Below are positions 19,140 through 54,412 of a stretch of 64,000 nt of DNA, one piece after another. The notes beneath the pieces are model-generated. The model searched no databases, was not told the origin of the DNA, and was given only the letters and a program-made list of their open reading frames with translations. The DNA is from Linnemannia hyalina. Lineage: Eukaryota; Mortierellomycota; Mortierellomycetes; Mortierellales; Mortierellaceae. The first letter of the stretch is position 1. Each line of letters begins with the position of its first letter. Location of the stretch: NCBI GenBank assembly GCA_019671135.1, contig JAHRHY010000018.1:806001-870000 (forward strand), given 5' to 3'. The position numbers and the translations under genes are program-made.

Positions 19140-19900
19140 CCAACAAAAAGCCCTCCTAACCGCTGTGCTCATTCTCCTTCTCCTTGGCGATTGCAAAGTT
19201 CTCGCAAAAGGCATCCGTAACAGGTGTAGGCGCACGTTTGGTCTTGGTCCAATGACGAACACATCCAACATCCTTCGTCGCCATGCCAACCGTCATGTTC
19301 TCTCTCGCTTCATCGTCTGTCCTCCCACAGTACCCCATCAACACCGGGACCGGCAAGAAAGCATCAACCCACGAAATTAGGTGCTGTGGATCGATACCCG
19401 ACTTGCGTGCAATATTGACAGTCTCAGACAGGATCGACGTGCTCGATATGATAGTGTAGCTCGCAGCTTCAATATCGAGGCAGCAGCAACATCGGTCGTC
19501 TTGAGGTCCAGAATCTTGCGCGACATGGTTTCGAAATATGGGAGTCTGTCAACCGCGTTCGTGCCACCACTGACGACCCAGAGCAATTGAGCTGCTCGAG
19601 CGGAGTCTGGTCGACTAAAGACGGGACACTGCAAGTAGACATGGCGTGGGACAAGTCGGCGAGTTCTTTCTGGAGGCGGAGGCTGAGCTCGGGGCGGAGG
19701 GTTCCGGCCTCAACAAAGACGATCTGCTCCTGAGCAGTCGCGGCACAGCGGAGGGAGGTCTCGATGGCAGCGTCGTTAATGAGGGAGGTGAAATTGATGA
19801 TGGCCTTGGCGCAGGACCCGTCAGGGTAGAGACGAAGAATTCCTCGAGCGAGTAGACGACATGAACTCCGGGGCGGAGAAGGTACTGAAGTTTTCTGCCT
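19140..19900 (-). pseudogene. Decayed tandem copy of the neighbouring beta-hydroxyacid dehydrogenase
   Basis: Read on the minus strand, pieces in shifting frames match the intact gene at 20222-21145. A piece like NFTSLINDAAIE precedes QEQIVFVEAGT. QCPVFSRPDSARAAQLLWV and ILDLKTTDVAAAS match the middle, and a piece like GMATKDVG matches the C-terminal helices. The N-terminal Rossmann GxGxxG region is missing or beyond recognition, and several frameshifts and stops separate the pieces. It lies in the same orientation directly downstream of the intact gene, so it is best explained as a dead tandem duplicate. Confidence 0.8.
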
Positions 19901-20221
19901 TGTTGGCGGTGCGGTTACAGTCGGTGATATTTTTGTTCTATGATCGATTTCTGATATTTTCAGGTGCTCTTAGTAGCTTCTTCATCAATGCCTGTTTATC
20001 CTCCTCGACCTATCATCTCTTCAGCATGTACTGCGCGACCCATGATACCCGTTTTAAACTCTCGTTGACAGCTCTTGTGCTTCGCTCCCGGCGAAGCCAG
20101 GTGAACGTGTTTAACGGCATGCGCAAAGCGAACGAGGATGTATATTTTGTTCGATTGTTCTTTATTTATTGCAATTGCTTGTTGGACAAATATTCTCACG
20201 CTCTCTTCAGTTGGATGTTTC

Positions 20222-21145
20222 TCACTTCTGTCCCTCAGGTCCCTCCCTCAAGACCTCAATGATAGACGACCAATCCTGGTCACCCTTGCCCTGAGCCTTC
20301 AGCTTCTCCAAGTTCCTGTACGCAATATCAGCAGTCGGCAAGGTCGCTCCATGATCAGCAGCCAATGTCCTCATGTGACCCACATCCTTCAACCCAAGAG
20401 TAACTGGGAATCCGCCAGCCTTCTCTGTCGATCCTGCGGCAATCTTTTGACTGTAACCGATCCAGGAAGGTGTAGGGAAGAAAGACTCGATAAATTGCAG
20501 CATCGCATTCTTGTCAATGTCGACCTTCTCTGCCAACGCGAATCCTTCTGCGAGTAACTCAATCGTCCCAACGACGAAAAAGTTGCCCATCAGTTTGAAC
20601 GAACTGGCCTTGCTCACGTCGGTGGTCTTGAGGTCGATGGTGTTCTTCGACATGGATCCAAAGTAGGGCTGGAGCTTCTCGATCGTCGCGGAATCTCCAG
20701 AGGCGACCCAGACAAGTTGAGCGGCATGAGCACGGTCCGGGCGACCAAAGACGGGGCACTGGAGGTAGCGGTGTTGAGGGTACGCGGCGACGAGCTGGCT
20801 GACTTTGGTCGCTGTGGTTGGGTGTATGGTCGAGGTATCGACAAAGATGATCTGTTCTTGGACCTTGCTGGTCAACTGGACGAGTTGTTCGTAGACGTTC
20901 TCGACGGCGGCATCGTTGGCGAGGGAGGTGAAGATGACGTTGGAGGTCGAAGCGAGGTTTTCGATGGAGGTGGCGACATGGGCTCCTTGTTCCTTGATGG
21001 CGTCGGTTTTTCCGGGGGAACGGTTCCAGACGGTGAGGTGGGATCCGTGGGAGGCGAGGTATGAGTGGAGACTCTTGGCCATGCCGTATCCCATCTCGCC
21101 CAGTCCGATCCAGCCGATCCTGATGTCCTGTGTTGTCTGAGCCAT
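20222..21145 (-). CDS. NAD(P)-dependent beta-hydroxyacid dehydrogenase (HIBADH/GLYR-like), 307 aa, single exon
   Basis: An N-terminal Rossmann domain opens with WIGLGEMGYGMAKSL, giving the GLGxMG dinucleotide-binding motif, followed by TVWNRSPGK; the Asn-Arg after the second strand favours NADPH. A C-terminal helical domain carries KLMGNFF, with the Lys and Asn spacing of the catalytic GxxxKxxxN region, here altered. The family's substrate-binding SGG segment reads CPVFGRP instead. The family oxidises 3-hydroxy acids or reduces semialdehydes such as succinic semialdehyde or glyoxylate; the substrate here is unknown. The start at 21145 (MAQTTQ) is preferred over one 48 codons upstream because the extra residues are not conserved in character. 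The gene has no intron, unlike most neighbours. Confidence 0.85.
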   Translation of the reverse strand: MAQTTQDIRIGWIGLGEMGYGMAKSLHSYLASHGSHLTVWNRSPGKTDAIKEQGAHVATSIENLASTSNVIFTSLANDAAVENVYEQLVQLTSKVQEQIIFVDTSTIHPTTATKVSQLVAAYPQHRYLQCPVFGRPDRAHAAQLVWVASGDSATIEKLQPYFGSMSKNTIDLKTTDVSKASSFKLMGNFFVVGTIELLAEGFALAEKVDIDKNAMLQFIESFFPTPSWIGYSQKIAAGSTEKAGGFPVTLGLKDVGHMRTLAADHGATLPTADIAYRNLEKLKAQGKGDQDWSSIIEVLREGPEGQK

Positions 21146-22006
21146 AGTGTGTTTGTTGAGGGAGTGTTGTTTTGCTGAGGAGGGATAGTATTGTTTGGAT
21201 GTGAAAGAAGAGGGGTGGAAGCGTGTATTTATGCAAAAGAGAAGACCAATTGGGTGTTGGTGTGGCTGCAATGGGTGGCTTGCAGACAAGATTTCTCAGC
21301 ATCACACTATTCACCCATTGACCAAAAAGAAAGAGGTGCTCACAAAGAGACCGGGCGTTGCTTATTCTTCTTTAGCTGACACATACACACTGACAGAAAG
21401 CAACTCAATTCGCTTCGTGTCTCCGGTTTGTTCCCCCTCTTGCGCATCTGGTGGTCTCTGATTTCCTTTTAGAGAAGAAATAGAACTTGAACCTCCGGTC
21501 TTTTCCCTTCTCTCTCTATTTTCTGCAATGGCGCGCTTACATTGGTGCGTTCAAGAAACTACGGCAGTTTGTGTCGCTGATTCAATTCTGTCTTGCTGAC
21601 ACTTGGTGAGCGTGGGGTTGATAGTTTGTAAGGTTAAAAGGTTGCTAGACTCCATGGTGCTTGAGTAATACATTTGGAAGAGAAAGCAATGGTCAACATG
21701 ACTCCTCTTCTACTTATTGATATGGAAAAAATGTTCAAGACCGGGGTCAGAAAGAGAGAGAGAGAGAGAGGAGGTTGGGGGTGGAAAACCTCTGTCCCCA
21801 GATACACCCTCATTGCATTGATTTCTTCCAGGAAGATTCCAGTGTGGCATTTGCTGTGTACGTATCGACACCTCACCACAGCACCTTGATAACTGAGAGC
21901 AAGCAGGACAAGGAGACCACCAAAGTCAATAACACCATCAATATCCAACAGCCTACTGGCAACTCCTTCACTGACAGCAGCAGCGTTCCCACCAGCAACA
22001 ATACAA
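21146..22006. other. Gap containing a segment shared with the flank of copy D
   Basis: No gene seen apart from the dehydrogenase promoter side. Positions about 21822-21860 are nearly identical to about 30109-30148 (sharing tccaggaagattccagtgt), which marks one edge of the duplicated DNA around the array. A short GA tract lies near 21755-21770. Confidence 0.5.
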
Positions 22007-22393: not shown

Positions 22394-23323
22394 GGAATGA
22401 TGCCCTCAGGACTTGACGTCACTGCCGACAACCGCCCACACATCTAATACCATTGGTCCGTCTCACATCACTCGCGTTGCCACCAAGGCGCACCGCCAAT
22501 TGTAATCTCCCTCCCGAGCCTTCATCCTCATCCTCATTATCCTCTTTATCACTCTCTCTTCATTCTCACCACGGTCCTCGTCAAGGAATCCACCCTTTTT
22601 GACCATTTATGGCCGTTTCGACTTGTACTCTACTCACTCTTGATTCTTTCCTCCTAGCTCATAGTAATCATAGTAATCATTACTCTTTTTTTTTAACTCG
22701 CATTCATAACTTTCATCATTGGTTTGTCATCTTTGCTATCCATACACAAACGCAACAAAACATGAAGTCCTCCAAAATAAACCAAATAAACCAAATAACC
22801 CTCAAAAACATTGTACTTTTACTTTGCATAATCCATCTTTCTTGAATAAACAACCTTTCTCTTTCCCATTCGAAAAGGACTCTTGGAAATAATGATGACA
22901 TGAAAAAAATCGCGCGACTTGATGCTCTGCAAGAACGAAAAGGTGTCACGAAACATGAACGTGAGCATCAAGAAGATTTTGGCGGCGCTTTGACGCGCAA
23001 TGTGAAACACGAACCACGTCGTGAACGACCTACGCGAATCAAGAAAACTTACACAAGCACTTGGAGTACACCCATGAGAACGACAAACAGCAGTCAAAGT
23101 AGATCAAGTGAGAAGGAAGCAAACAAGTAAGAAAGCAAGTGAGGAATGCAGGATCGTGAATCTTTGATTTGTGTGAACAAAAGCTGTCTATTTTTGCTTG
23201 AAAATAATAATGGGACTCCAGCATGGGCCGATTCACGCGTCTGTGTCAGGCTTATTATTTTTCATGCACCTAAATGATGTTCTTGTGTTCGCTGAGCAAG
23301 GCTTGCTTTTCATTAGGTAGTGC

Positions 23324-23369
23324 ACCCTGCTCGGCGAACCTGAATAGAACTTATCGGTCATGGGACCCA
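23324..23369 (+). promoter_or_regulatory. Conserved upstream element, copy A
   Basis: A ctgctcggcgaacc core followed about 20 bases later by gtcatgggaccc, about 235-280 bases before the ATG. The same two-part element precedes copies B, D and E. Function inferred only from conservation. Confidence 0.4.
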
Positions 23370-23481
23370 TCCTCTATTTCCATCCACTCGACCCTCATGC
23401 CACCAGTCTCGATTTCTGTTTGATGGCGCGGGACGTCTTTTTCCTTGCATGTTCGATTACCTTTCGTAATTATTTTCTTGG

Positions 23482-23487
23482 TATAAA
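23482..23487 (+). promoter_or_regulatory. TATA-like box, copy A
   Basis: TATAAA in the context gtataaatgg, about 115 bases before the copy A ATG. Equivalent boxes sit at 24855, 27283, 30832 and 33802 before the other copies. Confidence 0.55.
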
Positions 23488-23602
23488 TGGCAAAGGCCAA
23501 TGCCTCTTGTTCTCTTTCATTTTATTCCTATCTTTTCTCACCATCAATCTTTCTCCTCACCCTGACACACAGATCCACCAAATACCTACCATTTCATCCG
23601 CT

Positions 23603-24152
23603 ATGAAGACCTCTTTTGCCATCGCTGCGATCCTCGGGTAAGCAACGGTTTTTACATGACAGGTCTTGATTTTTCCACTCCACTCAACATATCCACATCT
23701 GCACCCCCTGAAACTGACCATCTCCACACATCCCTTTTTCCTACTGAAGCGCTCTCCTGGCCACTGTTCCAACCGTCACCACCCTTCCTGCCGCGTGAGC
23801 CCCGATGAGAGCTCCTGAGCAGCCCGTCCACCGCGACGTCGGCTCTGGCATGAACCAGGGATTCCCGGAAGGATTGGAGCGTATCGCTCGCATTTCCCTC
23901 CTGGAGATTCACCGAGTTCCCAACGTCAACGGCCCTGCTACTGCCGCTGAGCCTTTGGTGCTCAACCTCTCCTCCGGCGCCATGTTAGAGGCGATCAGGA
24001 AATTCGCCGCGGCATGTGAAGAGCTTGCCAAGGAAGCCGTATACCGTGAAACCTCCTCTGAGGAGACCATGGTCGAGTCCTTCGAGACGGCCAAAGCACT
24101 TGCGAATGGGGTGTGCGTTAACGTTGGTCCTTTCGTTAGAGTCTGTGTTTGA
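23603..24152 (+). pseudogene. Array copy A: internally deleted, stop-containing member of the secreted family
   Basis: Exon 1 (23603-23637) encodes a signal-peptide start, MKTSFAIAAIL, and ends in a split Gly codon before GTAAGC. Exon 2 opens at 23750. Codon 28 is TGA (23796-23798), where other copies have Gln. The frame then stays open to the stop at 24150-24152. The piece GSGMNQGFPEGLERI matches the family N-terminus; soon after it passes to a tail ending MVESFETAKALANGVCVNV, which otherwise occurs only in copy D. About 500 codons of the full-length layout are missing. The acceptor (gaag) differs from the tag/cag of other copies, as if the original site decayed. A product could start at 23805 without a signal peptide. 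I treat it as a deleted pseudogene. Confidence 0.7.
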
Positions 24153-24734
24153 AGTAGTTCTTTCTTTTTATTTGTTTCTTTCGTCCTTTCCTTTCTCTGC
24201 CTTTTTTTCGAAGTTAGCTGAAGAGGCTGGACAGAGGTCATAATAAATGCACTTCAACTCATCGTGACTATGTTTACAACTTGTTCTCCCTGAGGAATTG
24301 GATTACACGGGGTTTTGTTTATAGTAGCGAATGGTGTTGTGGTGAAATAGGAGTGTGGTGAGGAGGATTAGAGGCATCGTTTTTCTATCTCAGTCTTTTT
24401 TTCTCGCTTGGTTCTGAAAGAGGAAAAAAAAGGGCACCGATAATTTTTTTTGGTGGCGCTTGATCACCTTGTCGACTCCATCAGTAGCCATGCTCGAACT
24501 TTCAAAAGGAAGCGCGATACCAGGACTGGAGATTAGTGTACACACTCAGTCACTCTCTCACTCGCAAAGAGTACTCAGAGTAGCGAAATGAAGATACGGA
24601 AGCAAAGAAGTAAGCAAAGAACGCATGGATTCTAGGCTTCCATCTTTCTGTGGCAACGGTGGCTGGTTGCCCATAAAAATGGTTAATGCACGCGCAGTGT
24701 CAGGTACAAGCCTTTTTTTCCTATTTCCTGACGT

Positions 24735-24779
24735 ACCCTGCTCGGTGACTCAAGTGAAAAATTATGGGTCAAGGAACCC
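24735..24779 (+). promoter_or_regulatory. Conserved upstream element, copy B
   Basis: An accctgctcggtgactcaag segment followed by ggtcaaggaaccc. Nearly identical to the copy E element at 33669-33713. Confidence 0.45.
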
Positions 24780-24854
24780 CTCTGCCTTGACTGTTGTGGT
24801 GGGGTAAACGATTTTTTTTCCGGCATGGCAGATATTTTTGTCGTTTTGTATTTG

Positions 24855-24860
24855 TATAAG
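24855..24860 (+). promoter_or_regulatory. TATA-like box, copy B (degenerate)
   Basis: TATAAG where copy E has TATAAA in otherwise matching DNA (ttttgtatttgtataa), about 130 bases before the ATG. Confidence 0.4.
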
Positions 24861-24957
24861 TGGTAACAACAACAACTATTATTTGTTTTCCTCCTCTCTT
24901 CCCCCAACAACCATCCACATTCTCTCTCTCTTCTCATCTCCCTCTCCCCCCCCCCCA

Positions 24958-24979
24958 ACACACACACACACACACACAC
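24958..24979. repeat. CA dinucleotide tract at the start of copy B
   Basis: About 11 CA units ending 8 bases before the copy B ATG, within its leader. A poly-C tract lies just before it. Confidence 0.75.
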
Positions 24980-24987
24980 GCTTCATC

Positions 24988-26775
24988 ATGCGTGCTTTAT
25001 TCGCCCTCACGGTGATCCTCGGGTAAGAAAAAATGTTGCACGACAACCTTGATTCCTTCAATTGACATGTCATTCTGCCACACCCTCAAGCTGACCATCA
25101 TATCCTTCACTACGTCATGTTTTTTTCCGTTGTAGAAGCACATTGCTAACCGCCATTCCAACCGTTACCCCACTTCCGCCTCCCCAAGTTCCACTTAAAG
25201 CTCCTGAGCATGGAATCCAGCCCCATTTGCCTCAAGGGATCATATGTGGCAACAGCATCCGAGTCGTCCTCCGCCAGATCGCCTCAGGTCTGGACCAAAG
25301 CTATCCAAACGACTGGGAAAGTCTGATGACAAACCTGACTACCAATGGATCTTCAAGTACCCAGACAATTGAGCCGTCTGATCTCAAGTCCGTCATGCAA
25401 ACCTGGGGACTCGACATCGACTTGTTTGGCAAGGCTTACCACGATGTTCAGGTTTTAATTCGGTCAGCTGTTGATGAAGGTATCTACATTGCCCAGGGCC
25501 TTTCGTACAACTGGTCGCGCTGCCTGGGTCATACGTCTCATCACACATGCTTTTCGACTCTGATGGTTGTTGCGAGGGTGCCGTATGTGGTCAGTGGCTA
25601 CGTCTGGAGAGCCGAAGTTGGACACGTTTACATATCTTCAGGCGCCAAAACTTACATCTGTCATCAATGCATGTTTGGCTTATGCGAGGCTCGCTGTCAC
25701 GACCACGCCGAAGACCCTAAAAGACTCTTGCATATTATTGCCGTCATGTCAGCCTCCCAGGCCGGCTGGGCTCTAAACCATCTCCCAAAGCCTCCAGCAG
25801 ACGTACCCTTCGCCACTACCGACGTTTCTCATCCCCAATCTTTGGCCGCTCCTTCATCTCCTCTTCGGCGTAGTCGATTCGACCGCCTGTTGCGGCTCTT
25901 CCGCAGAAAAGCGGCAGAGAATCGCGATGTGCGCCAGGCGTACCGAGGAGGTTTGCTTGCAGCGACCCTAGACCCCAAGGTGCTCATGGGGTTTTTGCGC
26001 GTTGCGTCGGCGTCGTCTTACTTCAAGATCCCTATCTATGACAAGATCCCAGTCGATGACCAGCTCCCCTACCCTTTTCAGCAGTACCAAGTCGTCGGTG
26101 ATTCTGATACCTCCACAGCTGCATTGACGATGAGCCCTTCCTTTGACGCCTTGAAGGAGTCGATTCACAAGTATGCCGAGTCCTGGGGAAAAGTCATCGG
26201 AGAGGTCGGATCCAGAGTCAACTCGGACGTCCAGCGACGGGTATGTCTCGGCTTTGATGCCCTCGACTACCAATCCACCTCAAACGTGCTGCAGGGAGTG
26301 CCGACAAGTAACATGCCGCGCCTTGTGAATTATGTCGTTGACAGGGACAGCCTCCCCCGACAAGAAGACGTTAAACGCCTCATGTCTGGCGTCAAGTACT
26401 CGACTGACTTTACTTGGACGGCCGAGTCGATGACATTCACCAACCCGGCCGGTGAGCAGTCTTATTTCATTTTTGCAAAGTATGGTGGTAAAGAGGGCTC
26501 GGAGAGGTCAGATGTTGTGTACTCGTCAGTTAAGAGCCAGTTTGTCCTTGCGCAAGACATGCTGATTCTTCATCGCCAGTCGAGTTCGTTCTGGGGCTCT
26601 TCGGCAGCGAGGAGACATATATCGAGTATGTGCCACATACGATGACGTTGAACGATACGCTGGTGTTGGAGATGTACTGGGAGATGATTGCGTTCCGTCA
26701 GATTATGATTAGTCTGGGAGAAGAGCCGCCCAAGACCCCGGATATGAGCGGACTTTGCAATCGGTCCATGCTTTA
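24988..26775 (+). pseudogene. Array copy B: family member with in-frame internal deletion and 3' frameshift
   Basis: Exon 1 24988-25022 (MRALFALTVIL, split Gly); exon 2 from 25136. The frame is open for about 500 codons, with the N-terminal region, a Cys-rich patch (CHQCMFGLCEARC) and most of the C-terminal region (RRVCLGFDALDY, LMSGVKYST, FTNPAGEQSYF). Compared with copies C and E it lacks about 190 codons between GLLAA and VLMGFLRVASASSY, an in-frame loss that removes the EEWWRRVY region. Near 26590-26605 a one-base shift makes the frame end at 26645. In the next frame the conserved tail (IEYVPHTMTLNDT to LCNRSML) continues to TAG at 26773-26775. If real, the shift removes about 60 C-terminal residues. 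Apart from that shift it is the least interrupted copy. Confidence 0.72.
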
Positions 26776-27423
26776 GAAGAAAGTTGGGAGCTGTCCTCTT
26801 TTTTTCCCGTTGATTTTTTCATGTGTTCGTCTTCGCCATTTTCTCCCTCTTCCCACTCCCACCTTTTCGAACTAGCTGCAGCGGTATTAATTCGAAGTAA
26901 ACAAAAAAATAATCTCAAAACAACTTTGTGAGGCAGGGTAGGCAAACAACATGCATATATGCAAAAAAGCGAGAAAGCAAGTGCGCAAGGCATTTTTTTT
27001 TGTGACACCAATGGGCCACCCATGAAAAAACAACCCGATTTGCATGAATGGGACAGCAAATGGATCCATACGTACTTCTCTGCCACCCACAGTATTTTCT
27101 TCGGTGTGGATGCGCCATTTTTTTTGTTTGTTATTGATGTTGCTGTGCCAAATTTTGCTAGCACAGGGTCCAAATACCCCGATCCCGTTCAACCATCTAC
27201 CACTCCCCCTTTGCACCACGTTTGACAGTCCCCGGTGTTCCATCGCCTGTCGACTTTGCAATGGCGAAGACCTCATTTCCAGTATAAAAGCAGTCATATT
27301 TTTTGGTTTATTTGTCTTTCACCACACAACCAGTCCTATTCACACAAAAATAAATCCGGTCCTCTCACACTAATAGAAACATATACAGCCCTTGCAGTAC
27401 ACCCTGGCCCCCTTTCTCACTCC
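26776..27423. other. Spacer between copies B and C, promoter of copy C
   Basis: No gene seen. It holds a T-rich 3' flank and, nearer to C, a TATA box and C/A-rich leader. It resembles the flanks of A/B/D/E less than those resemble each other, consistent with C lying outside the duplicated pairs. Confidence 0.5.
27283..27288 (+). promoter_or_regulatory. TATA-like box, copy C
   Basis: TATAAA in agtataaaag, about 135 bases before the copy C ATG. Confidence 0.55.
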
Positions 27424-29847
27424 ATGCGGTCCTTCCTCGCCCTCACAGCGATCCTTGGGTAAGAGGCTCTCATCACACTACCAGGCTCTTTTTTATTCGA
27501 GCTGATCCTCCTCAATCAAACGTTCACAACTTGTCATTCATACCTTTATAATTTTTGTAGGTGCATTCTCATATGTGCATCCACCAATGTGTTCGCCATA
27601 CCGTCTCCTCCACAAGTACTTATGAGAGCCCCCGACGACAACGTCGTCATCCCTATCAACCGTCCATCATTTTCCGCAAGCACCGTCGATCAAGGCAACG
27701 ACGTCCAAGATGTGTTATCCCAGATCGCATCCCGTCTCAACCAAGGTCTCCCCGACCGCTGGGAACGTCTCACGCATGCACCCATCAGCCAAGGGTCCTC
27801 GAGTATTGACATGATAGCCTCCTCTGACCTCGAATCGATCATCCGGTCCTGGGGACTAGACAACGACATGTTCGACCAGGCCTACCGCGACATCAATACG
27901 CTGATTCGACTCGCTGTCGGTGAGGGTGTTTATATCGCACAGGGGTTCTCGTACAATTGGTCGCATTGTCAAGGAGGTGGTAATCATCCTGCATGTCTCT
28001 CGACTCTTATTGTAGTCGTGAGAGTGCCTTATGTGCCGAATGAGGGAAGTGACGGTACTGCTTCGAAAGCAGAGCTCGGACACATTTATGTCACTACGAC
28101 TGCCGAGACAGTGCAGCAATATATCTCTTCTCATCCTTGCCACAGATGGTGATTCAAGACATGCTGCCACGACGTTTACACCCCAAGGAACCTTGACACG
28201 CAGGAACTCCAGGATGTCCAGGCGGTCATGTCGACCTTTCAGTCTAATTGGGCCTTGGAGCTTCTCTCGCAGCAGCTGCATCAGGCTCAACCAACCTTGT
28301 ACAGTGCCAAGCCTGGCACATCTCTGTTTTCTGCTTCAGACGACGCTCCTGTGTGGCCTGGTCTATTCGATCGTCTGCTGCGTCTGTTTATTGGCAACTC
28401 TGCCGAGAATCGTGATGTTCACAAGGTGTACAGAGGAGGTTTGCTCGAAGCCATCCAAAATGCTACCCTCTCCCGCCGGCAAGGCTTTCACAACATGCAA
28501 TTGACTGTCTCTGAGCGAGGGATCGTTCCGCTGTTGGAGGATATGTTGTCGAGTTGCTTTGACAGAGCAGGCATCGAGGAGTCAGTCGAGGAGTGGTGGA
28601 GGCGTGTCTATACCGAGGACCAAGGCGATCCAATCTCCCTTGAGTGCGAATTTGCCAGTCAGAGGAGAGTCTCGATTGTGCCTCCAAGAGACAGGTGCAT
28701 CACCAGCACGAATGTCACGATCGACAACTCGTACTCTTGGATCCTGGTTGCGCCGCATGACAATGGTCTGTTTGATATCTTATTTATGGAAGTCGATCTT
28801 GGAATGGCTTTTGAGGGCTGCGAGCCCGAGGAGGAGGACAATGATGAGGAAGATCTGGGTTCATGGACGACTCCTGTACGCATTCCAATGGCTATCCAAG
28901 AATCCGGCTCGATGATACGCTGGGGTTATGTCGACTCCAATGATGGCTCTTTCGGTTCCGTGCAGTATTTGGCAAAGTGGGAATCCTATCCGAGTCATGT
29001 CAGCAAGGTACTCTTGGATTTCTTGCGCTTTGCATCCGCTGCATCCTATCTCAAGATCCCAATCTACAGGAAGACCTTGTCGCCTCCGTCTTTATCTCCG
29101 TCTCCTTGTCCTCATCGACATCCCATCTTCCATCAACATCAACGGCAGCAGCTCCGACTACAAGACGCCAGCACTGGTGCCGTAGTCGCACCCTTAGCCA
29201 TGGACCCGTCCTTTCTCGCCCTAATGGAGTCCATCAAGTTGTTTGCCGAGACCTGGGAGAAGCTTGTCAAGGTGATCGGATCCACGACCTCGACCACCAT
29301 CAAGCGCCGCGTCTGTCTCGGTTTTGACACCCTCGACTACAAAGCAAGTTCGAGCGTCATGCAAGGAGTCGCTCACAATAACCTCGCTGAACTTGTCGAA
29401 GAGGTCGTCGACTTGGAAGAACTCCCCCGCCGAGAGGACATCAAACACCTCATGACCGGCATCAATTACTCGACCAATTTCACTTGGCTCGCCGAATCGA
29501 TGACGTTCACCAATCCCGCCGGCGAGTCGTCGTACTTCTTCTTTTCAAAGTACGGAGGCGATGGGAGCACTGGTATGGCTAATGTGGTGTACAGTGCGGT
29601 AAAGAGTAAATTTACCCTGGCGCCCGATATGTTAATCGTCCGGCGCCAAAAGAGTTCGTGGTTTGGGTTCCGTAAGAGCGATGAGACGTCGATTGAGTAT
29701 GTGCCGCACACGTTGACGCTGAATGATACGTTGGTGTTGGAGATGTTCTGGGAGATGGTTGCTTTCCACCAGTTGGCGATTACTCTTGGAGGCGACCCGC
29801 CCATGTATCCAGATCTGAGCGGGTATTGCGACCGATCCATTCCTTAG
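27424..29847 (+). pseudogene. Array copy C: full-length family member with one in-frame TGA
   Basis: Exon 1 27424-27458 (MRSFLALTAIL, split Gly); exon 2 27561-29847. The layout would be about 773 residues with one interruption: TGA at 28150-28152 (codon 209), where copies D and E have Trp in the Cys-rich patch (CxxC, then CC). Downstream the same frame is open for more than 560 codons, through EEWWRRVY, RRVCLGFDTLDY, FTNPAGESSYF and IEYVPHTLTLND to LSGYCDRSIP. It alone carries a Pro/Ser/His/Gln-rich insert (about 29090-29165). N-terminal signal and cysteines imply secretion. I recognise no domain. The one stop could be a young nonsense mutation, a sequencing error, or read through; a downstream ATG at 28228 would give a product without a signal peptide. 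Confidence 0.72.
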
Positions 29848-30487
29848 AAATAAGTTGAAGTGGTCTCCTCCCTCATTCTCTTCCGTCACCTTTTCTTCTC
29901 AGTGTTGTTTTTTTTTGGATTTGAATAAAAACCACCTTTGTTGTTGTTATTGTTATTGTTCATTCGTGTGTTTGTTTTTGTCTTCCTGTATGATAGGAAA
30001 AGCGCTCTGAGGGAGTGTTCTCTCGGTGGATGGGAAAGGCAAATAGACAATGCGGAGGAAAGCTGTGTTCGTGTGCTTGTTCCCCTTGCCCATTGCCTGG
30101 TCTATGTATTTTTTCCAGGAAGATTCCAGTGTAGCATTTACTGCGTAACAAGCAAAAAAAACGACGTAAAGTCGCCGTATTCTCCAAAAACAATTATACT
30201 TTACTTTGCTCAATCCTGAATAAAAAAGCCTTCCTCTTTCCCATTGAAAATGGATTCTTGGAAATAATGACGACATGAAAAAGTAATGCGACTGGTGCTT
30301 TGCAAGAAAGAAAATGTTTTGGGTAACGCGAGCGCGAGTATCGAGAAAAATTTGGTGGCGCTGCCCTTTTCGCGGCTCAACCAATAAGACCGTGTCGCGA
30401 AAGAACCAAGCCGAACTGAGAAAACTTGCAAAAGCATTGTGAGTACACATACGAACGAACGGACAACATAGATATCAACGCACCTCC

Positions 30488-30515
30488 AAAAAAAAAAAAA
30501 AAAAAAAAAAAAAAA
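30488..30515. repeat. Poly-A tract (28 A)
   Basis: An uninterrupted A run in the upstream flank of copy D. It is absent at the matching place before copy A. Confidence 0.75.
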
Positions 30516-30681
30516 GAAAGGCGCCAACAAGTAAGCAATCAAGCGAGGAATGCAAGGCTTTGATTTTTGTGGTACTTGTGGATGGTGACCCTTGATAAAT
30601 CGACCTGTGTTAGGACCTTGTTGTATGCACACTTTTAATGTTTTTGTTTTACTGAGCAAGGCTTGCTTTCGGGTTGATGAT

Positions 30682-30726
30682 ACGCTGCTCGGTGAACCAG
30701 AGTAGAACATATTTGTCAAGGACCCT
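30682..30726 (+). promoter_or_regulatory. Conserved upstream element, copy D
   Basis: A cgctgctcggtgaaccagag segment then gtcaaggaccc. It is the closest match to the copy A element, and both are preceded by a gagcaaggcttgctt-type sequence. Confidence 0.45.
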
Positions 30727-30831
30727 GTTTACTACGCATTCCATGCATCCTTCATGCACCCAATGCTCGACGTTTTTTGATGGGGCTTGGCGGTTTTTTA
30801 TAGCTTCTCGATTTTTTTCGCATTTGTTATG

Positions 30832-30837
30832 TATAAA
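30832..30837 (+). promoter_or_regulatory. TATA-like box, copy D
   Basis: TATAAA in gtataaaagg, about 125 bases before the copy D ATG. Confidence 0.55.
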
Positions 30838-30959
30838 AGGCAGTGACCAAGAACTCTTGTCCTCTCTCTTTTTCTTTCTTTCCCCATCCTCCACCATTCT
30901 CTATCTCTCCCATCTTCACACGCACACATTCGTCAAACACCAACCACTCTTCATCCACT

Positions 30960-33012
30960 ATGAAGACTTTTTTCGCCATCGCGGCGATCCTCGGGTAGGA
31001 GAAAGTTTTTGTATGGCAAGCCTTGATGATGTTTATTCCGAACTGTACTCCCCTCATATTCTCAAACTGACCATCACACTTCTATCTACACATCCCGTAT
31101 TATTTTTCTTGCAGGAGCGCCTTTCTAGCCGCTACCCCTACTGTCATGTCCCTTCCGCCTCCTCAGGTCCCGCTGAATGCTCTTGAGCTACCTGTCTCGC
31201 GCCTTTCCGCCTCTGCCTACATCCAATGCGACGATGTTCAGCAGGTCCTCCGCAACATTGCCTCAGGTCTCAATCAGGGTTACCCAAATGGATGGGAGCG
31301 TTTCACTCGTGCTCCTGGCAGCAGCGGTTCATCAAGCATCGAGATGGTCACGGCGGACAACCTCAAGTCGGCCATGCAAACCTGGGGTCTTGACGGAGGT
31401 GTTCTTGGCCAGGCCTACGACCGCGTCCATATGGCCATCGAACTTGCTGTCAGCGAGACCGCCTACTTCGCCCAGGGGTTTTCGTACAACTGGAGCCCTG
31501 CCAAGGTGGCGGTGATCACCCCGCCTGTTTGGCGACACTCATGGTTGTCGTCAAGGTGCCCGATGCGATCGGTGATGACGGTGCTTGGAAAGCTGAGGTC
31601 GGACACATCTACATCTCCACAGCCGCCGAGACGCTGCAGCAGTGGGTTCCCTGGCACAAATGCCACAATTGCTGGTTCAAAAGATGTTGCCATGACGGTG
31701 CGGATCCGAGAAACCTCAGCACTGGGGAACTTGAAGTGGTCAAGGCCGTCATGTCCACTTTCCAGGCCGATTGGACTTTGAATCATTTCCCAAATCCCGC
31801 AGCAGAGATGTCTTTCACCAGAACCGACGTTTCTCTTTCTTCAGCCTTGGACGCTACTTCTTCTCTTCTTTGGCCTGGCCGGTTTGACAACCTGTTGCGA
31901 CTCTTCCTCCGCAACCCGGTCGAGAACAGTGATGTGAGCAAGATCTATCAAGGAGGTTTGCTCGCCGCCATCCAAAACGCGACCCTGTCCCACCGCCAAG
32001 GCTTTCACAACATGGAGTTGACTGTTCGCGAGTAAGGCGTTGTTCCAATGTTGGACAACATGCTGTCAACTTGCTTCAGTAATGCAGACATCAAGGAGTC
32101 GATTGAGGAGTGGTGGAGACGCGCCTACGTGAAGGGCCAGACCGAGCCCATCTCTCTCGAGTGCGATTTTGCCGGCCAGAAAAAGGTGTCCGTCGTGCCT
32201 GCAAGAACCGGATGCACTACCAGCACCGATTTTGCTGTCGATACCTCCTACGCCTGGAGCCTGATCGCACCACGTGACGATCTCTTTGACATCCTTTTCA
32301 TGGAGGGCGATGTCGGCGTTACATTCGATGAATGCGTGCCTCTCAAGGGAGACGATCAAGATAGCGACGGCGAAGTCCATACGTCCTCCGTTCTTCTTGA
32401 CGACCAAGAGTCCTCTGGTTCGATGGTCCGCTGGGCCATTGTCGAACCCATCGACGGTTCGTTCCGATCTATGCAGTACCTGGCAGAATGGCGTGAGTAC
32501 CCTAGCTATGTCACCAAAGTAGTTCTCAATTTTTGCGCCGTGCTTCCGCGTCGTCGTACCTCAAGATCCCTATCTACGACATGCCTGCCGCCAGCTTTCA
32601 GAAAAGCCAGGCCCCTGTCAGCACTGCTGCTGTCAAGGCACCATCAAAGTGGTGCTCCATCCTTGAAACTCTGAGGAAGACTCTCAAGATCTCTGGCGAG
32701 GACTGGAGAATGGCCGCCAAGTTGTACGGATGCAGTGTAACACCTACCGCCCAGTCTATCCTCATGCACCTGCAAGACCAAGTTCCAAAAGGTCCTGCTA
32801 CCGCCACAGAGTCTTTGTTGACGATCCCCTCCTTCGATGTTATTTTTAAAGAGATCGAGAAGTATGCCAAGTACTTGGAGAGAATTGTCTATGGAGGCAG
32901 ATCCGGCGTGAGCCCCTCCGAGGAGGCCGTGATGGTTGAATCCATCGAGCCCGCTCATGTTCTTGCAAATGGGGTGTGCGTTAACGTCGGCCTCGTTACA
33001 ATCTGTACTTGA
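30960..33012 (+). pseudogene. Array copy D: family member with multiple breaks and a different C-terminal tail
   Basis: Exon 1 30960-30994 (MKTFFAIAAIL), with a weakened donor (GTAGGA rather than GTAAG); exon 2 from 31115. Relative to copy E there is a one-base loss near 31525, a TAA at 32033-32035 where E has CAA (Gln), and a further frameshift near 32525-32545. After the last shift the frame reads ASASSYLKIPIYD and then leaves the family layout. The RRVCLGFDALDY to LCDRS region is absent and is replaced by a tail ending VMVESIEPAHVLANGVCVNV, stop 33010-33012, shared with copy A. The N-terminal two thirds clearly belong to the family, including the CHNCWFKRCCHD patch and EEWWRRAY. It is almost certainly non-functional as one protein. 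Confidence 0.78.
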
Positions 33013-33668
33013 AGTAACTCTTCCGTTTATTTTGTTCTTTCCATGCTCTCCTCTGTCTTTTTTTTCGAAAGTAGCGGCTGGGTATAGAACTTAAAATAAA
33101 TATGCTTCAACTTTAGTCACAGAAATTGTTTGCACACCTTGAAATAAGGAATAATGCATGTTGTCTGTTGACTAATCTTATCTCGAAACAGTCGATGGCA
33201 CGACTATGGCTACACCCAGTTCCCCCCGAAGAATTAGATTGCATGGAGATTTTGTTTATGGTAGCGAATGAGAGAGCTCTCTCTCATTTTTTTTCTTTTT
33301 TTTTGCACGGTTCTGACCAGGAAAATATTAAGTATCGATAAAAAAAATTGGTGGCGCTTTGATCGCCTTGTCGACTCCACCGGCAGAGACCATGCTCGAG
33401 CTATCAAAAAGAAACGCGGCACTTGGACAGGGACTTGTAAACGCACTCACTCACTCACTCACGCAGCCACTTAATCATTCATACAGGGCACTCAGAGCAG
33501 CAAATAGAAAAGTCAAGGTAGCAACCAGGCAAGCAAAGAATGCTGGATGCAAGGCTGGGATTTTTGGTGACAATGGTGACTGGTAGCCATGGAAAGGCCA
33601 ATGTACGTATCAATGTCAGGTATATTTTTTGTTTCTTTTGCAAGCCTTTTTTTTTCTATTTCTTGACG

Positions 33669-33713
33669 TACCCTGTTCGGTGACTTAAGTGAAAAATGAT
33701 GAGTCAAGGAACC
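33669..33713 (+). promoter_or_regulatory. Conserved upstream element, copy E
   Basis: An accctgttcggtgacttaag segment then gtcaaggaaccc, about 190-235 bases before the ATG. Confidence 0.45.
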
Positions 33714-33801
33714 CATCCTATATATTCATCCATTCACCCCGTACTCCCTCTACTTCAGCTTTTGTGATGAGGCAGACGATTTTTTTTTCGTTTTGTATTT
33801 G

Positions 33802-33807
33802 TATAAA
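33802..33807 (+). promoter_or_regulatory. TATA-like box, copy E
   Basis: TATAAA in gtataaaagg, about 100 bases before the ATG. Confidence 0.55.
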
Positions 33808-33903
33808 AGGCTGTAAGTGTTACGTTGTTTCCCTGTATGTCTTTCTTCTTTTCCTCAAACCATCCTCATCCTCTCTATCCTCCACAAACACACACCTCGT
33901 CTG

Positions 33904-36173
33904 ATGCGCGCTTTATTCGCGATCCTCGCGTAAGATTTTTTTTGTGTGGAAAGCCTTGATTCCTTCTTTTGACTTATCTTCCTCTCATACTGTCAAATTG
34001 ACCATTCGCTCACCGCGCACTTTTTTCTTTTCTTAGGAGCGCACTACTAGCCGTCACTCCAACCCCAGCTTCGCTTCCGCCTCCCCAAGCTCCACTGAGA
34101 ACTCCTGAGCTGCCAGTCCAGAAACACCTCTTGCCGTCGAATCTCCTCCATGGCGATAACGTCCAAGCGGTCCTCCACCAGGTTGCCTCCAATCTAAATC
34201 AAGGCGTCTCAGACGGCTCGGAGAACTTACTGCAAGACCTCTCGACCACTGGGTCGTCACGCATCGAGATGGTTGCAGCGAATGATCTCAGACCGGTCAT
34301 GCAGAACTGGGGTCTTGAAGACGGCGCTCTTGATCAGGCGTACGATCGTATCCACAAAAGTATCGAGCGTGCTATTGGGGAGGCTGTCTATTCCGCCCAG
34401 GGGTTCTCACTCAACTGGATCTCCACTCAAGACAATGGTGCTGAAACCACACGCCTGTCGACTCTGTTGGTGGTCGTGAAGTTGTCCGATGTGCATGGCG
34501 GCGACGATGCTTGGATTGCTGAAATCGGACACATTCCCGTATCTTCAGATGCCAACACCATTGTCTGCTATCGGTGCTGGTTCAAGCCTTGCTGCCGCAA
34601 CACGGCCGAGGACCTACGAAACCGGGAGAATATTATCGCTGCCATTTCCACCTTCCATGCCGATTGGGCTTTGAACCATCTCCCAGACCCGCCAGCAGAC
34701 TTATTCGCTGGCAGAACCGAAGTTTCTCTGTCGTCGTCTTCTGAGGCACCTCTTTGGCCTGGTCGATTCGAAAGTCTGTTGCGTCACTTCCTTGGCAACT
34801 CAGCCGAGAACCGCGATGCGCGCAAGACCTACCGATCGGGTTTACTCGCCGCCGTCCAGAATGCAACTCTCTCCCACCGTCAAGGCTTTCACAACATGGA
34901 ATGGGTTGTTCGTGAGCAAGGCGTCGTTCCGATGCTTCAGGACATGATGTCAACCTGCTTCAGCATGGCTGGCATTGAATAATCGATTGAAGAATGGTGG
35001 AGACGAGTCTATGTCGAAGGCCCAAGCGATCCTGTCTCTGTCGAGTGCGAGTTTGCCACTCAGGAAAGGATGCCTACCGTTCCGTCCGGAATAGGATGTG
35101 TTACCAGCGCCAATGTCACTACCTATACCAAGTATACCTGGGCTCTGATCGCGCCTCGTGACGATCTCTTTGACATCCTTTTCATGGAAGGTGAGGTCAG
35201 CGTTACATTCAAGGATTGCGAGCCCTTGGAGTATGACGACCAAGATGATGTCGCGGGGTCAGTCCATGCGCGATTCGCTTCTGTTGACGATGACCAAGAT
35301 TTCACCGATTCCATGATCCGCTGGGCCTATGTCGAGCTCGCCGAAGGCACTTTCCGATCTATGCAGTACATTACGGGATGGAAGGATTACCCCAGTTATG
35401 TCAGCAAGGCGCTCATGGATTTTTGTCGCATTGCCTCCGCGTCGTCCTACCTCAAGGCCTCAGTCTATGACAAGCGTCCGTCCTTCGTGCGGCAGTACCA
35501 AGTCCCCAAATATACTACTTCTCCGACGTCGAGCCTCTCCTTTGACTCATTGATGGATTCGATCGGCAAGTTTGCCGATACCTGGGAAAAGCTTGCCAAG
35601 GCGATCGGATCCAGCTCCGTCACGACTATCCAACGCCGCGTTTGTCTTGGCTTTGATGCCCTCGATTACAAGGCGTCGACAGGTGTGATGCAAGGTGTCG
35701 CGTCCAAGGACATGGGTCCCCTTGTCGAAGACGTTGTCGATTTCGAAGACCTCCCCCGCCGAGAAGACATCCGGCAGCTCATGTCCGGCGTCAAGTACTC
35801 AACCAATTTCACCTGGATGATCGAATCGATGACATATACCAACCCCGACGGCGAGCAGCCTTACTTCTTCTTTGCAAAGTACGGAGATGCGTTGACGGAC
35901 ACGGTGGATGTGGTCTACAGTTCGATCAAGAGTAAGTTTGTCGTCGCCAAGGACATGTTGATTGTCCATCGCCAGGAGACTTCGTTCTTTGGGTTGGACA
36001 GGAGTGACGAGATGTCGATTGAGTACGTGCCGCATACATTGACACTGAATGATACGTTGATTCTGGACATGTTCTGGGAGATGATTGCGTTCCACCAGTT
36101 GGCGATTAGTCTCGGAGGCCAGCCGCCCAAGTACCCGGATCTGAGCGGTCTTTGCGATCGGTCCATTCCTTGA
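33904..36173 (+). pseudogene. Array copy E: full-length family member with one in-frame TAA
   Basis: Exon 1 33904-33929 (MRALFAIL, split Ala); exon 2 34037-36173. The layout is about 720 residues with one interruption, TAA at 34980-34982 (codon 324), where C and D have Glu just before the SIEEWWRRVY-type region. The frame is open on both sides: 323 codons before, with signal peptide and Cys patch (CYRCWFKPCC), and nearly 400 after, through RRVCLGFDALDY, LMSGVKYST, PYFFFAKYG and IEYVPHTLTLND to LSGLCDRSIP. Because C and E keep long open frames on both sides of a single stop, loss must be recent or the stop is not fatal. Product unknown: a secreted protein without a domain I can name. Confidence 0.72.
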
Positions 36174-50384: not shown

Positions 50385-51764
50385 TGTGCGATGGTCGGTT
50401 GTGTGGAGAGGCTGTTGAAGAGAAGCGTAAAGACATACAACCTGTCCAAGGTAGAGACACTTCCGTCTTGGTACTCTGAATAATCGCAAGCGATGCACAT
50501 TTCAGGAGTTATTTGTTGTCGCCACCAACCCAGGAACCTGGATCCAAGAACTGATAACCTCACTTAACGACGGACCGTTGGGATCTGATTAAACCATACG
50601 TTCATATGCTGATAGCGGCGAAGGCAAGAATAACCGCGTTGCTGCTGGCGATATAAAACGTTCCTTGCTACTCTTTCGCTCTGGTTTTTCTTTGCATGAC
50701 CTTTGTTGAAATGCAGCCATCCCTTCTGGGCTGAACCTTCCTTCTGGGCTGAACCTTCCTACTCTCGTTTTCTTCTTTCTTGGTTGGCTGACTCCGACCA
50801 TTCAATGACTAAGAGAAAACAAAGAAAAAGCGAGAAAGGAGAATGACAAAGAGTATGCGTTGAGAGAAGGATGGAACATGATGGAAGTGAACCAAGTAGT
50901 TTATTGGGCGTGTCTGTCGTGTTTTAGTGTGGGCTTGATTACTTATCCGCGGAAGTGTCTACAGGTGAGTGCAAGTGTAAATTACATGACCAAGAAAAAG
51001 AGAAAAAAGGGGCGGAGGAAAATAGAACGGACCTTGGGATCGATGCTCGGGTATGAAAAAAATTCAAACAACTGACCTGACAGCAGCCTGCCTTTCGATG
51101 CTTTGTGCTCACAGTGCAACAAAGTAAGCAACAAGACCCACAGTCGAAAAAAAGGACAGAAGAGACTTGGTCTTGTATTTCCACAGCACTGACTGTCTTA
51201 CTAAAAGGACCATTGTCCTGCATGCTATCATTCTTTCTTCTTTCTGTGCCGTCCCTTCTTTCTGGCCCTCTGTCCTTCCACCTTGACCTTCCTTCCTTCA
51301 CCCTCCTGCTTTGTCATATACGCCCCTTGACCCCTCACTAGATCATCATCTCTTTCTCTTTCTCTTTCTTTCCCATTCCAGGCTGTACCCCTCATCGCCA
51401 CACTAGCCCATCCGCTCTATATATACTCTCTCACCTACCCCGCCCACACTTACCCAAACTCTCCACTTTTCGTCTTCTCTTTCCACTGTCACCCATCTTC
51501 GCCTCATCACACCTCAAAACAACTACAACTGAAGTATACATTTCGTCTTCTTCTTTTCTTTCTCTCTCCCCTTTCTGCTTCCACGCTCATCGCATTGTCT
51601 CCCATCTCACCACAGGTTCTTTTTCCATTACATTCAAACTCGACTTAGTCCCTTTTACCTTGTCACACTCCAGACACACCTTCTTTTTGAACCCACGAAA
51701 AACGCAAAAACGCAAAAAAAAAAAACCCCTCCGCTCACACCAACAAAAAAAGAGAAAGAGAGAA
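50385..51764. other. Gap between CWC15 and the first kelch gene
   Basis: No gene seen. It holds the CWC15 promoter, a 15-base direct repeat (ttctgggctgaacct near 50726 and 50742) and a long pyrimidine-rich leader (about 51220-51660) ahead of the kelch gene. Confidence 0.55.
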
Positions 51765-54412
51765 ATGATACCATCGCTCTGCAGCCACTGCAACGGCTGC
51801 CGGTTACGGACAATGCATAGGACCACAAGCCCGCAGCGGAGCAAAAGGAAACAACAATATCAACAACGGCGAACACTTTTTGTCCCACACCAACGTCTCT
51901 CCCTCGTCGCCGCTAGTCTGATCCTATCCCTCTCCCTTTCCCGCCCGATCCATGCCCAACAGCAAACACCATCACCACAGCCTTACCTTTACAAACCACG
52001 CTTCTCCTCCGGCTCAGCCATCGCCAACAATCGACTCTATATTGTCTCTGGCTACACCTCTGAGTTTTTTCCCTCGGACGCAGTAGGCGACTCCATGTTT
52101 GTGCCCCTCGACCGCCCCTTCTCCAACGACTCTGTCCCCTGGACGGCCGTTAAACCCCCTTGGATCGCAACCAGACCATTTTCTATGAACGGATCCGATG
52201 CCACCGTCGTACCAACAATAGATCAATCCCACCTCGTTTTCCTGGGCGCAAGCGGTCAAGGCGATCCCCTCCTCATGTCCTACGACATCGGTGCCGACTC
52301 GTGGGCTCCCTTCCGTTCAGATCCCGACCCACCACGCTCTGCTGTCGGTGCGGCTCTCGATCTAGAGACAGGCGTCATTGTCGTCCAGGGAGGCTTTATC
52401 AGGAACTTCGGTGCCCCTCTGTCGTCAGAAATCGACATTCTAACCTCAAATGGAGGTATGGCCCAGTGGGCATGGAGAAAGGGTGCGCCAACGACGCCAT
52501 TGAGACCCATCTTTCAGCCCATCGTCGTCTACCTACCGACACGAAAGGCCACCCTCATCATTGGTGGCACCAATTTTGAAAACAACAACATCGCAGGACT
52601 CCAAAAACTCGACTCTGGATACCTCGTCACCACTTCCACCGTCAAAGGTATCACAACAGTGAGCAACGCCATCGTCAATCTCACAGCATCTGAAATGGCG
52701 GTGCCCGTGAGTCGATTGTCGCCCTGCTATACTGTTCTGGAAAACGGCGACCTGTTTATGTACGGAGGAGCGACATTCTCAAGCAGTTTAAACGAAGCCT
52801 GGATTCTCAATGCTGGCGACCTGTCATGGAAGATGATGTCTATCGGCCAAAACCCTACAGCAGGGCGAGCAGGAGCTACCTGTCAACGGATATCACCAAA
52901 CCACATCATGGTTGTTGGAGGCAAGTCCACCTAAATTTACAGTGTAAAACTCTTGTTGAGAGGCTCATGCTCGAGTAGAAAACTGGGATATCAAAAACAT
53001 AGGAGGGGAGTGAAGACCGATGGTCGCTCTCCTTTTTCCTTGGGATCTCATACTTTTTCTTGTTTGTTTGCCTGGTGACTGGTCCAAGCTACACCTTTTT
53101 AACCCCAGTTTGTTCACACTGCTTGTATCTTTAAATAGGATACAGTGCGGTGATTAACAATCCCGTACGAACATTTTCTCAGCCCCAAATTGGCATCATT
53201 GACACTAAACAGTGGGTGTGGACAGCAACATATACACCACCGCGCCCAGGACTACCACTCGGCGCCATCATCGGGATCATCGTCGGCAGCTGTCTATTAT
53301 TGGGCATCGCCTTGTTCTTTGCAGGACGCACGCTCTGGAAGAGACGCAAGTCCGACACCGACAGGAAAATCAACCGGGATTCAGTCTCGGCACACCCACT
53401 CATGGGCAGTGACTCGGCCCTCACGAACGACAGCAACGACCGTTTCCACAGCACCCGCAATCTGATCTCACCCTCACCTTCCTCAGGCCCTATCTCCGGT
53501 AAAATGGGATCTGAATTTCATTCGGCATCTCTGACATCGACCAAGGACGGGAGGTCACTTCCTTTGATGATCATCCCCTATCCGGCGTCGACCACCTACA
53601 ACTCCTCATCGCTTTCAGTTGCAGGAACAGATTCGCCCGAGCGAGGATCGACCCCGACCTGGAACAGTTACAAGAGCAAAGGTGCCAAATCCAAAGGGTC
53701 GCTGCCCGAGAGCGAACGGTTGCCGCAGACAATAGCCGATATGCAGTACGGATACTATGTCAAGACAACACTACACAACAAGCAGTACGAGAAGCGGCAG
53801 ATCGATCTCAACCGACAACAGCCTAACAATGGACTCAACCGGAAGATCACGTCGAACCAGTATGCGATCCTCAATGACGGGTACCACGACGACATCGAGC
53901 TGGCGACGGCGGTTTTGCAGTTGAAGGACGTGGAAATGGGCGAGGAGTCGATCATGACTCCTCTGCAGTCGCTCGAGACAGGGACGATCTTGGTGTCGAG
54001 TCATCTGGACGATCAAGGCAGTTATCTTATATCACCGACTGGACCTACATCGCCGATTGGACATACACCGCCGATGCCGATGAGGGGGATTTCACATAGG
54101 TTTAGTAATATCCCCTCCAAGGCCGAGTTGAACGATGATGACGATGAGGAGCTCTATCAGCCAGGTGTTGGAGGGTCGATCACGAAGCTCAATGCCATCA
54201 AGGCTGCCAAAGCTAAGGCCAAGGCTGCTGAACTATCCGGAGCAGGGGCAGCACCAGGAGCAGGACAAGGCAAAGGACAGCAGAACCAGAGCCAGAACCA
54301 ATCGCAGCAGCAGCAACAATCGGGAAGGCGTGCGATGCCACCATTGTCGGAGGAACTCATCTCGGAGGAGAGTGAAGCGCTTGCAGACAACCGCCGAGTC
54401 AGGCGGCCGTAA
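51765..54412 (+). CDS. Kelch-propeller single-pass membrane protein, about 809 aa (paralogue 1)
   Basis: Exons 51765-52920 and 53139-54412. Frame is kept only with a GC donor at 52921 (GGAG|GCAAGT), at exactly the place where the paralogue at 56499 has GT. The N-terminus is basic, then a hydrophobic segment (LSLVAASLILSLSLS) ending PIHAQQQ as a signal peptide or anchor. Kelch-type blades follow (RLYIVSGYTS, LVFLGASGQG, VIVVQGGFI, ATLIIGGTNF, DLFMYGGATFSSSLNEAWIL, HIMVVGGYS), giving an extracellular beta-propeller. A transmembrane helix at about residues 425-448 (LGAIIGIIVGSCLLLGIALF) is followed by KRRKS and a 360-residue Ser/Gln-rich cytoplasmic tail. The layout is receptor- or adhesin-like, at the cell surface. 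Ligand unknown. The ATG at 51813 is an alternative start. Confidence 0.83.

Follow-up and report, generated by a model that had tools for sequence, protein, structure and literature searches.

An interrupted tandem array of an undescribed, probably secreted protein family of the Mortierellaceae in Linnemannia hyalina

Among described proteins, those with which the family reported here can best be compared in predicted fold are the Cyt delta-endotoxins (Cyt1Aa and Cyt2Ba) and the mushroom protein volvatoxin A2, each of which consists of one domain. SecB and PYL/PR-10 proteins, whose folds also appear among the structural matches, are cytosolic single-domain proteins. The locus that we compare with them lies in a 64,000-nucleotide (nt) stretch, here called the window, of contig JAHRHY010000018.1 (positions 806,001 to 870,000, forward strand) of Linnemannia hyalina, a member of the Mortierellaceae in the Mortierellomycota. 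Strain SCG-10 came from cornfield soil, and its 51.6 Mb genome is a PacBio-only HGAP4 assembly (PMC8444964). Five tandem copies, A to E, all on the plus strand, span positions 23603-36173 of the window and encode members of a large protein family that is, as judged from sequence, undescribed and known so far only from the Mortierellaceae. How the copies are laid out, which orthologues they have and where they are interrupted in this assembly is shown below; the explanation that we favour, and consider probable, is that a long-established tandem array encoding a secreted, Mortierellaceae-only family is now decaying in L. hyalina SCG-10.

The array and its protein family

A previous sequence-only reading of the window had reported a five-copy tandem array in which each copy opens with a signal-peptide micro-exon ending in a split codon. 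This is in agreement with our data, in that every copy starts with an ATG and ends in a stop; exon 1 measures 35 nt in A-D and 26 nt in E, 2 mod 3 in either case, and is followed by a single phase-2 GT..AG intron, 102-120 nt long (Table 1). The intron donor is GTAAG in A, B, C and E and differs in copy D, which has GTAGGA. Exon 1 probably encodes a signal peptide, judged by eye, and the spliced start of copy E is that of the deposited protein P0050, itself a prediction rather than an RNA sequence. TATA boxes had been said to persist; TATA[AT]A occurs at 23482, 27283, 30832, 33719 and 33802, but copy B has by eye only a variant, and to that extent the claim has to be narrowed. Full relatives match copies C and E from end to end, with one stop in each, and the open segment of copy C (28153-29847) is a 100% match to KI688_005084 in a protein search. 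Only part of the layout survives in copies A, B and D; copy A is a remnant consisting of the N-terminus and a short C-terminal piece only, matched by residues 1-12 and 14-127 of P0037.

The family comprises 52 proteins found (47, then 2, then 3 more), the deposited models of copies C and E included; the searches that gave the first 49 scored only the candidates with most shared words. All 39 proteins that carry a species name are from the Mortierellaceae, distributed over six genera (Linnemannia, Mortierella, Dissophora, Haplosporangium, Podila and Entomortierella). A search with domain 1 only gave three proteins: the deposited model of E itself, one from M. alpina and one without a species name. 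The layout common to the family is a signal sequence (by eye) followed by three alpha/beta domains with 12 conserved cysteine positions. In an alignment of 47 proteins, which omits P0001 and P0007 of the 49 then known as well as P0050-P0052, 27 have over 85% coverage in each of the three domains, with lengths of 678-923 amino acids (aa), most of them 690-775, and the N-terminal signal region is covered at 90% or more in 20 of the 47. Each of the 12 cysteine positions is retained by 22-27 of these 27 full rows, six of them by every row, and mean pairwise identity is highest in domain 3 (0.63, compared with 0.55 in domain 2 and 0.50 in domain 1). The normal product is probably secreted, and would be disulfide-bonded, as the hydrophobic N-terminus, the conserved cysteines and the lack of any matched enzyme domain suggest.

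Comparison with family libraries gave nothing credible. In Pfam the best E-value for eight window segments was 0.18, and among 26 relatives one reached 0.01 with the others above 0.09; in NCBIfam one member of 26 relatives reached 0.0034 and the others at least 0.043; in PHROGs the best value for four relatives was 0.025; and the PDB contained no match by sequence. Pattern-based scans detected no relative in viral contigs (using the family alignment) or in prokaryote genomes, and a description of the family was not found in the literature searched. The suggestion of a large, probably secreted family that matches no known one is thereby upheld; its bearers are common soil fungi, and none of the sequence libraries consulted recognises it.

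In trees of single domains, copies B, C, D and E join orthologues from other species and do not cluster by species. Copy B groups with P0043, P0041, P0037 and P0044 on domain 1 and with the first three of these on domain 3; copy C with P0002 plus 11 other rows on both domain 1 and domain 2, its domain 3 row being disregarded because it was cut out of frame; copy D with P0045, P0038, P0019 and P0032 on domain 2 only; and copy E with P0023, P0021 and P0046 on domain 1, and additionally with P0022 on domain 2. Copy A was not placed. The exception to orthologue grouping is P0019, which is of D type on domains 1 and 2, yet groups with E on domain 3. Neighbouring locus tags of paralogues in M. hygrophila (EC957_002587/2589/2591), L. 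schmuckeri (BG015_007447/7448) and L. elongata (BGZ91_003684/3687) suggest that the array itself is shared across species. Self-comparison of the window aligned the A-B block with the D-E block, in four pieces that are 63-72% identical, with copy C sitting between the two blocks, so that duplication of a two-gene block probably gave rise to part of the array, the domain cores of A, B and D being lost later in such a scheme.

Deletions had also been counted as damage to the copies, and this applies only in part. The core of domain 2 that is missing from copy B is likewise missing from P0043 (M. hygrophila), P0037 (L. elongata) and P0041, although P0044 (H. gracile) keeps domain 2 while grouping with copy B on domain 1, and the unusual C-terminus of copy D is found in P0045. 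As such, these are old architectures rather than damage peculiar to SCG-10. The ratio of nonsynonymous to synonymous divergence (dN/dS, NG86 method) was 0.13-0.44 in all nine paralogue segment pairs, at a dS of 0.7-2.8, and it is therefore probable that the family has long been under constraint and that the losses in L. hyalina are late.

Interruptions and their explanation

Lesions were located by tblastn of orthologues against the window, and every copy is interrupted as assembled, as had been claimed. There are seven lesions over the five copies, four in-frame stops and three frame changes: a TGA at 23796 in copy A; a frame change near 26594-26597 in copy B, its only lesion and a doubtful one; a TGA at 28150 in copy C, within a cysteine-rich stretch of domain 1 that differs from orthologues at one cysteine; a TAA at 32033 in copy D together with frame changes near 31496 and 32527; and a TAA at 34980 in copy E, where the deposited P0050 ends. 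Selenocysteine insertion or other recoding of the copy C TGA was set aside, as both TGA and TAA occur in the array and orthologues have ordinary residues at that position. Within its own 51.5 Mb genome no family member was found outside the array: all four queries (the C-terminal segment of E, P0039, P0037 and P0036) matched the array only, in a search that scores best candidates only and that a very divergent member could escape. Since every member found in the genome is interrupted, SCG-10 would no longer make the full-length protein, and since four of the five copies (A, B, C and E) carry a single lesion, the loss is likely to be recent. This would represent a natural loss in one genome that can be compared with relatives keeping the full layout.

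The deposited models conceal these interruptions. KI688_005084, the model of copy C, begins at an inner methionine and omits the stretch holding the TGA; about 80 codons kept in relatives (approximately 27948-28180, by eye) are left out, so that the stop is avoided. Stretches overlapping this omitted region are absent in P0030, P0042 and P0019, P0042 being otherwise like P0039. The omission is either an annotation artefact or alternative splicing inside the exon; it removes conserved core and cysteines, and its splice sites look weak by eye. With C deposited with its stop skipped and E as a short protein, the locus emphasizes that automatic annotation can hide gene decay.

Some copies might instead be functional when shortened, with E giving a secreted 323-aa protein that contains the whole of domain 1, C and B being expressed as deposited or by splicing, and the array as a whole moving to smaller products. 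P0050 is indeed deposited at this length with a spliced start, domain 1 of E is predicted to fold alone, and shorter layouts of B and D type are present in relatives; however, the product of E loses domain 3, the most conserved part of the protein, and the model of copy C dispenses with conserved core and cysteines and uses splice sites that by eye look weak. We regard such shortened function as possible but rather unlikely. That the genes are intact, and the frame breaks and perhaps the stops are consensus errors, is a reading that we consider unlikely, although a PacBio-only assembly and the three frame changes in B and D are consistent with it. Four of the seven lesions are in-frame stops, and indel errors do not create stops where the frame otherwise continues. 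Nor do the frame changes lie preferentially in long homopolymer runs: the longest homopolymers within 15 nt of them are of 4, 3 and 5 nt, and among 5000 random 31-nt windows drawn from the array, 36%, 75% and 14% contain runs at least that long, so that position as such neither points to assembly error nor excludes it. Stop-to-stop frames of 747 and 1291 aa are also open in the window, and the lesions of the array thus do not resemble generally poor sequence.

The sequence-only reading had itself proposed a lineage-specific family turning over rapidly by birth and death. Tandem paralogues with interrupted copies, as would be expected of such a family, are present, and the remnant A, the domain cores lost in B and D, and the domain 3 of P0019, which is a sign of exchange between copies, fit this proposal, as does P0047, the orthologue of D in M. 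hygrophila, which stops at 399 aa, possibly through a frame change, and whose tail failed to align. In contrast, copies B to E each fall into cross-species orthologue groups, the family is spread over six genera and the dN/dS values are low. A young family under fast birth and death is largely disfavoured by the domain trees and appears quite improbable; some turnover has taken place. Intact orthologues of ordinary function had been named as a finding that would count against the proposal; relatives with the full layout do exist, which is one half of that finding. Decay of an old array remains the explanation that we prefer.

Coordinates and other genes in the window

Table 1. Array features by position in the window
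Feature	Position	Strand	Description
A-B block with flanks	22803..25963	+	matches the D-E block (self-comparison)
Copy A	23603..24152	+	remnant; exon 1 23603-23637, exon 2 23750-24152
Copy B	24988..26776	+	domains 1 and 3; lacks the core of domain 2
Copy C	27424..29847	+	full three-domain layout; deposited as KI688_005084 (P0001, 662 aa)
D-E block with flanks	30185..34852	+	matches the A-B block (self-comparison)
Copy D	30960..33012	+	domains 1 and 2, then a truncated, different C-terminus
Copy E	33904..36173	+	full three-domain layout; deposited as KI688_005087 (P0050, 323 aa)
Domain 1 of copy E	34131..34712	+	folded alone, predicted local distance difference test (pLDDT) 87.5, predicted template modelling score (pTM) 0.83; weak cytolysin-like matches

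Elsewhere in the window, a 3-hydroxyisobutyrate/6-phosphogluconate dehydrogenase-like gene is located on the minus strand at 20222-21295 (region 19469-21295), adjoined by a partial, diverged copy (19489-19638 against 20616-20768, 68%). Two adjacent Kelch-repeat genes, apparently tandem paralogues, lie at 51342-58363, and behind each of them comes a frame that by eye contains a transmembrane-like stretch.

Predicted fold and comparison with described proteins

The normal product would act outside the cell, most plausibly with a cytolysin-like domain 1 making contact with the membranes of grazers or competing organisms, a step that we put forward tentatively. The structural model makes a membrane-active, cytolysin-like domain 1 conceivable but doubtful, and it is unlikely that all parts of the broader picture hold together, namely a new, Mortierellaceae-confined secreted family of three modules with a cytolysin fold, deployed against grazers or competitors in soil and undergoing loss in L. 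hyalina. In the model the element order H-E-H-H-E-E-E-E-E-H (H, helix; E, strand) occurs three times, provided that two short linker helices are left aside and the blocks are cut by hand; an internal threefold repeat, which we retain as no more than an idea, had no sequence support in profile comparison, with hhalign probabilities of at most 1% and scores reached by 27, 30 and 43 of 60 shuffles. Perforin-2, vitellogenin, fatty-acid synthase and others that rank high among the Foldseek matches of the whole model were not used, their probability being at most 0.15. Evf, which shares the cytolysin fold according to PMC5390079, was not among the 50 Foldseek matches listed for domain 1.

The best matches of domain 1 in BFVD were A0A650DA38 and the Hyperionvirus protein A0A3G5A862 (E-values 7.2e-6 and 1.7e-5), with a probability of 1.00 and template modelling (TM) scores of 0.48 and 0.42, but with only 10-11% identity. 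Below A0A650DA38, the highest-ranking viral structures are those of uncharacterised proteins from giant viruses (Hyperionvirus, moumouvirus, Edafosvirus and Terrestrivirus). The SecB chaperone fold was matched with a Foldseek probability of 0.44-0.51 among the matches listed, and the PYL/PR-10 (START-like) fold with at most 0.69.

The likeness of domain 1 to Cyt1Aa, Cyt2Ba and volvatoxin A2 is weak, with TM scores of at most 0.39. Pfam holds a Cyt-type profile, and no Cyt-type family was found there at an E-value of 1 or below with the eight window segments or the 26 relatives. If domain 1 is a cytolysin, the known range of the fold would come to include a fungal phylum that branched early, and a chain of several domains. 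Unlike the single-domain Cyt and volvatoxin proteins, the Mortierellaceae family combines three domains in about 740 aa, with 12 conserved cysteine positions.
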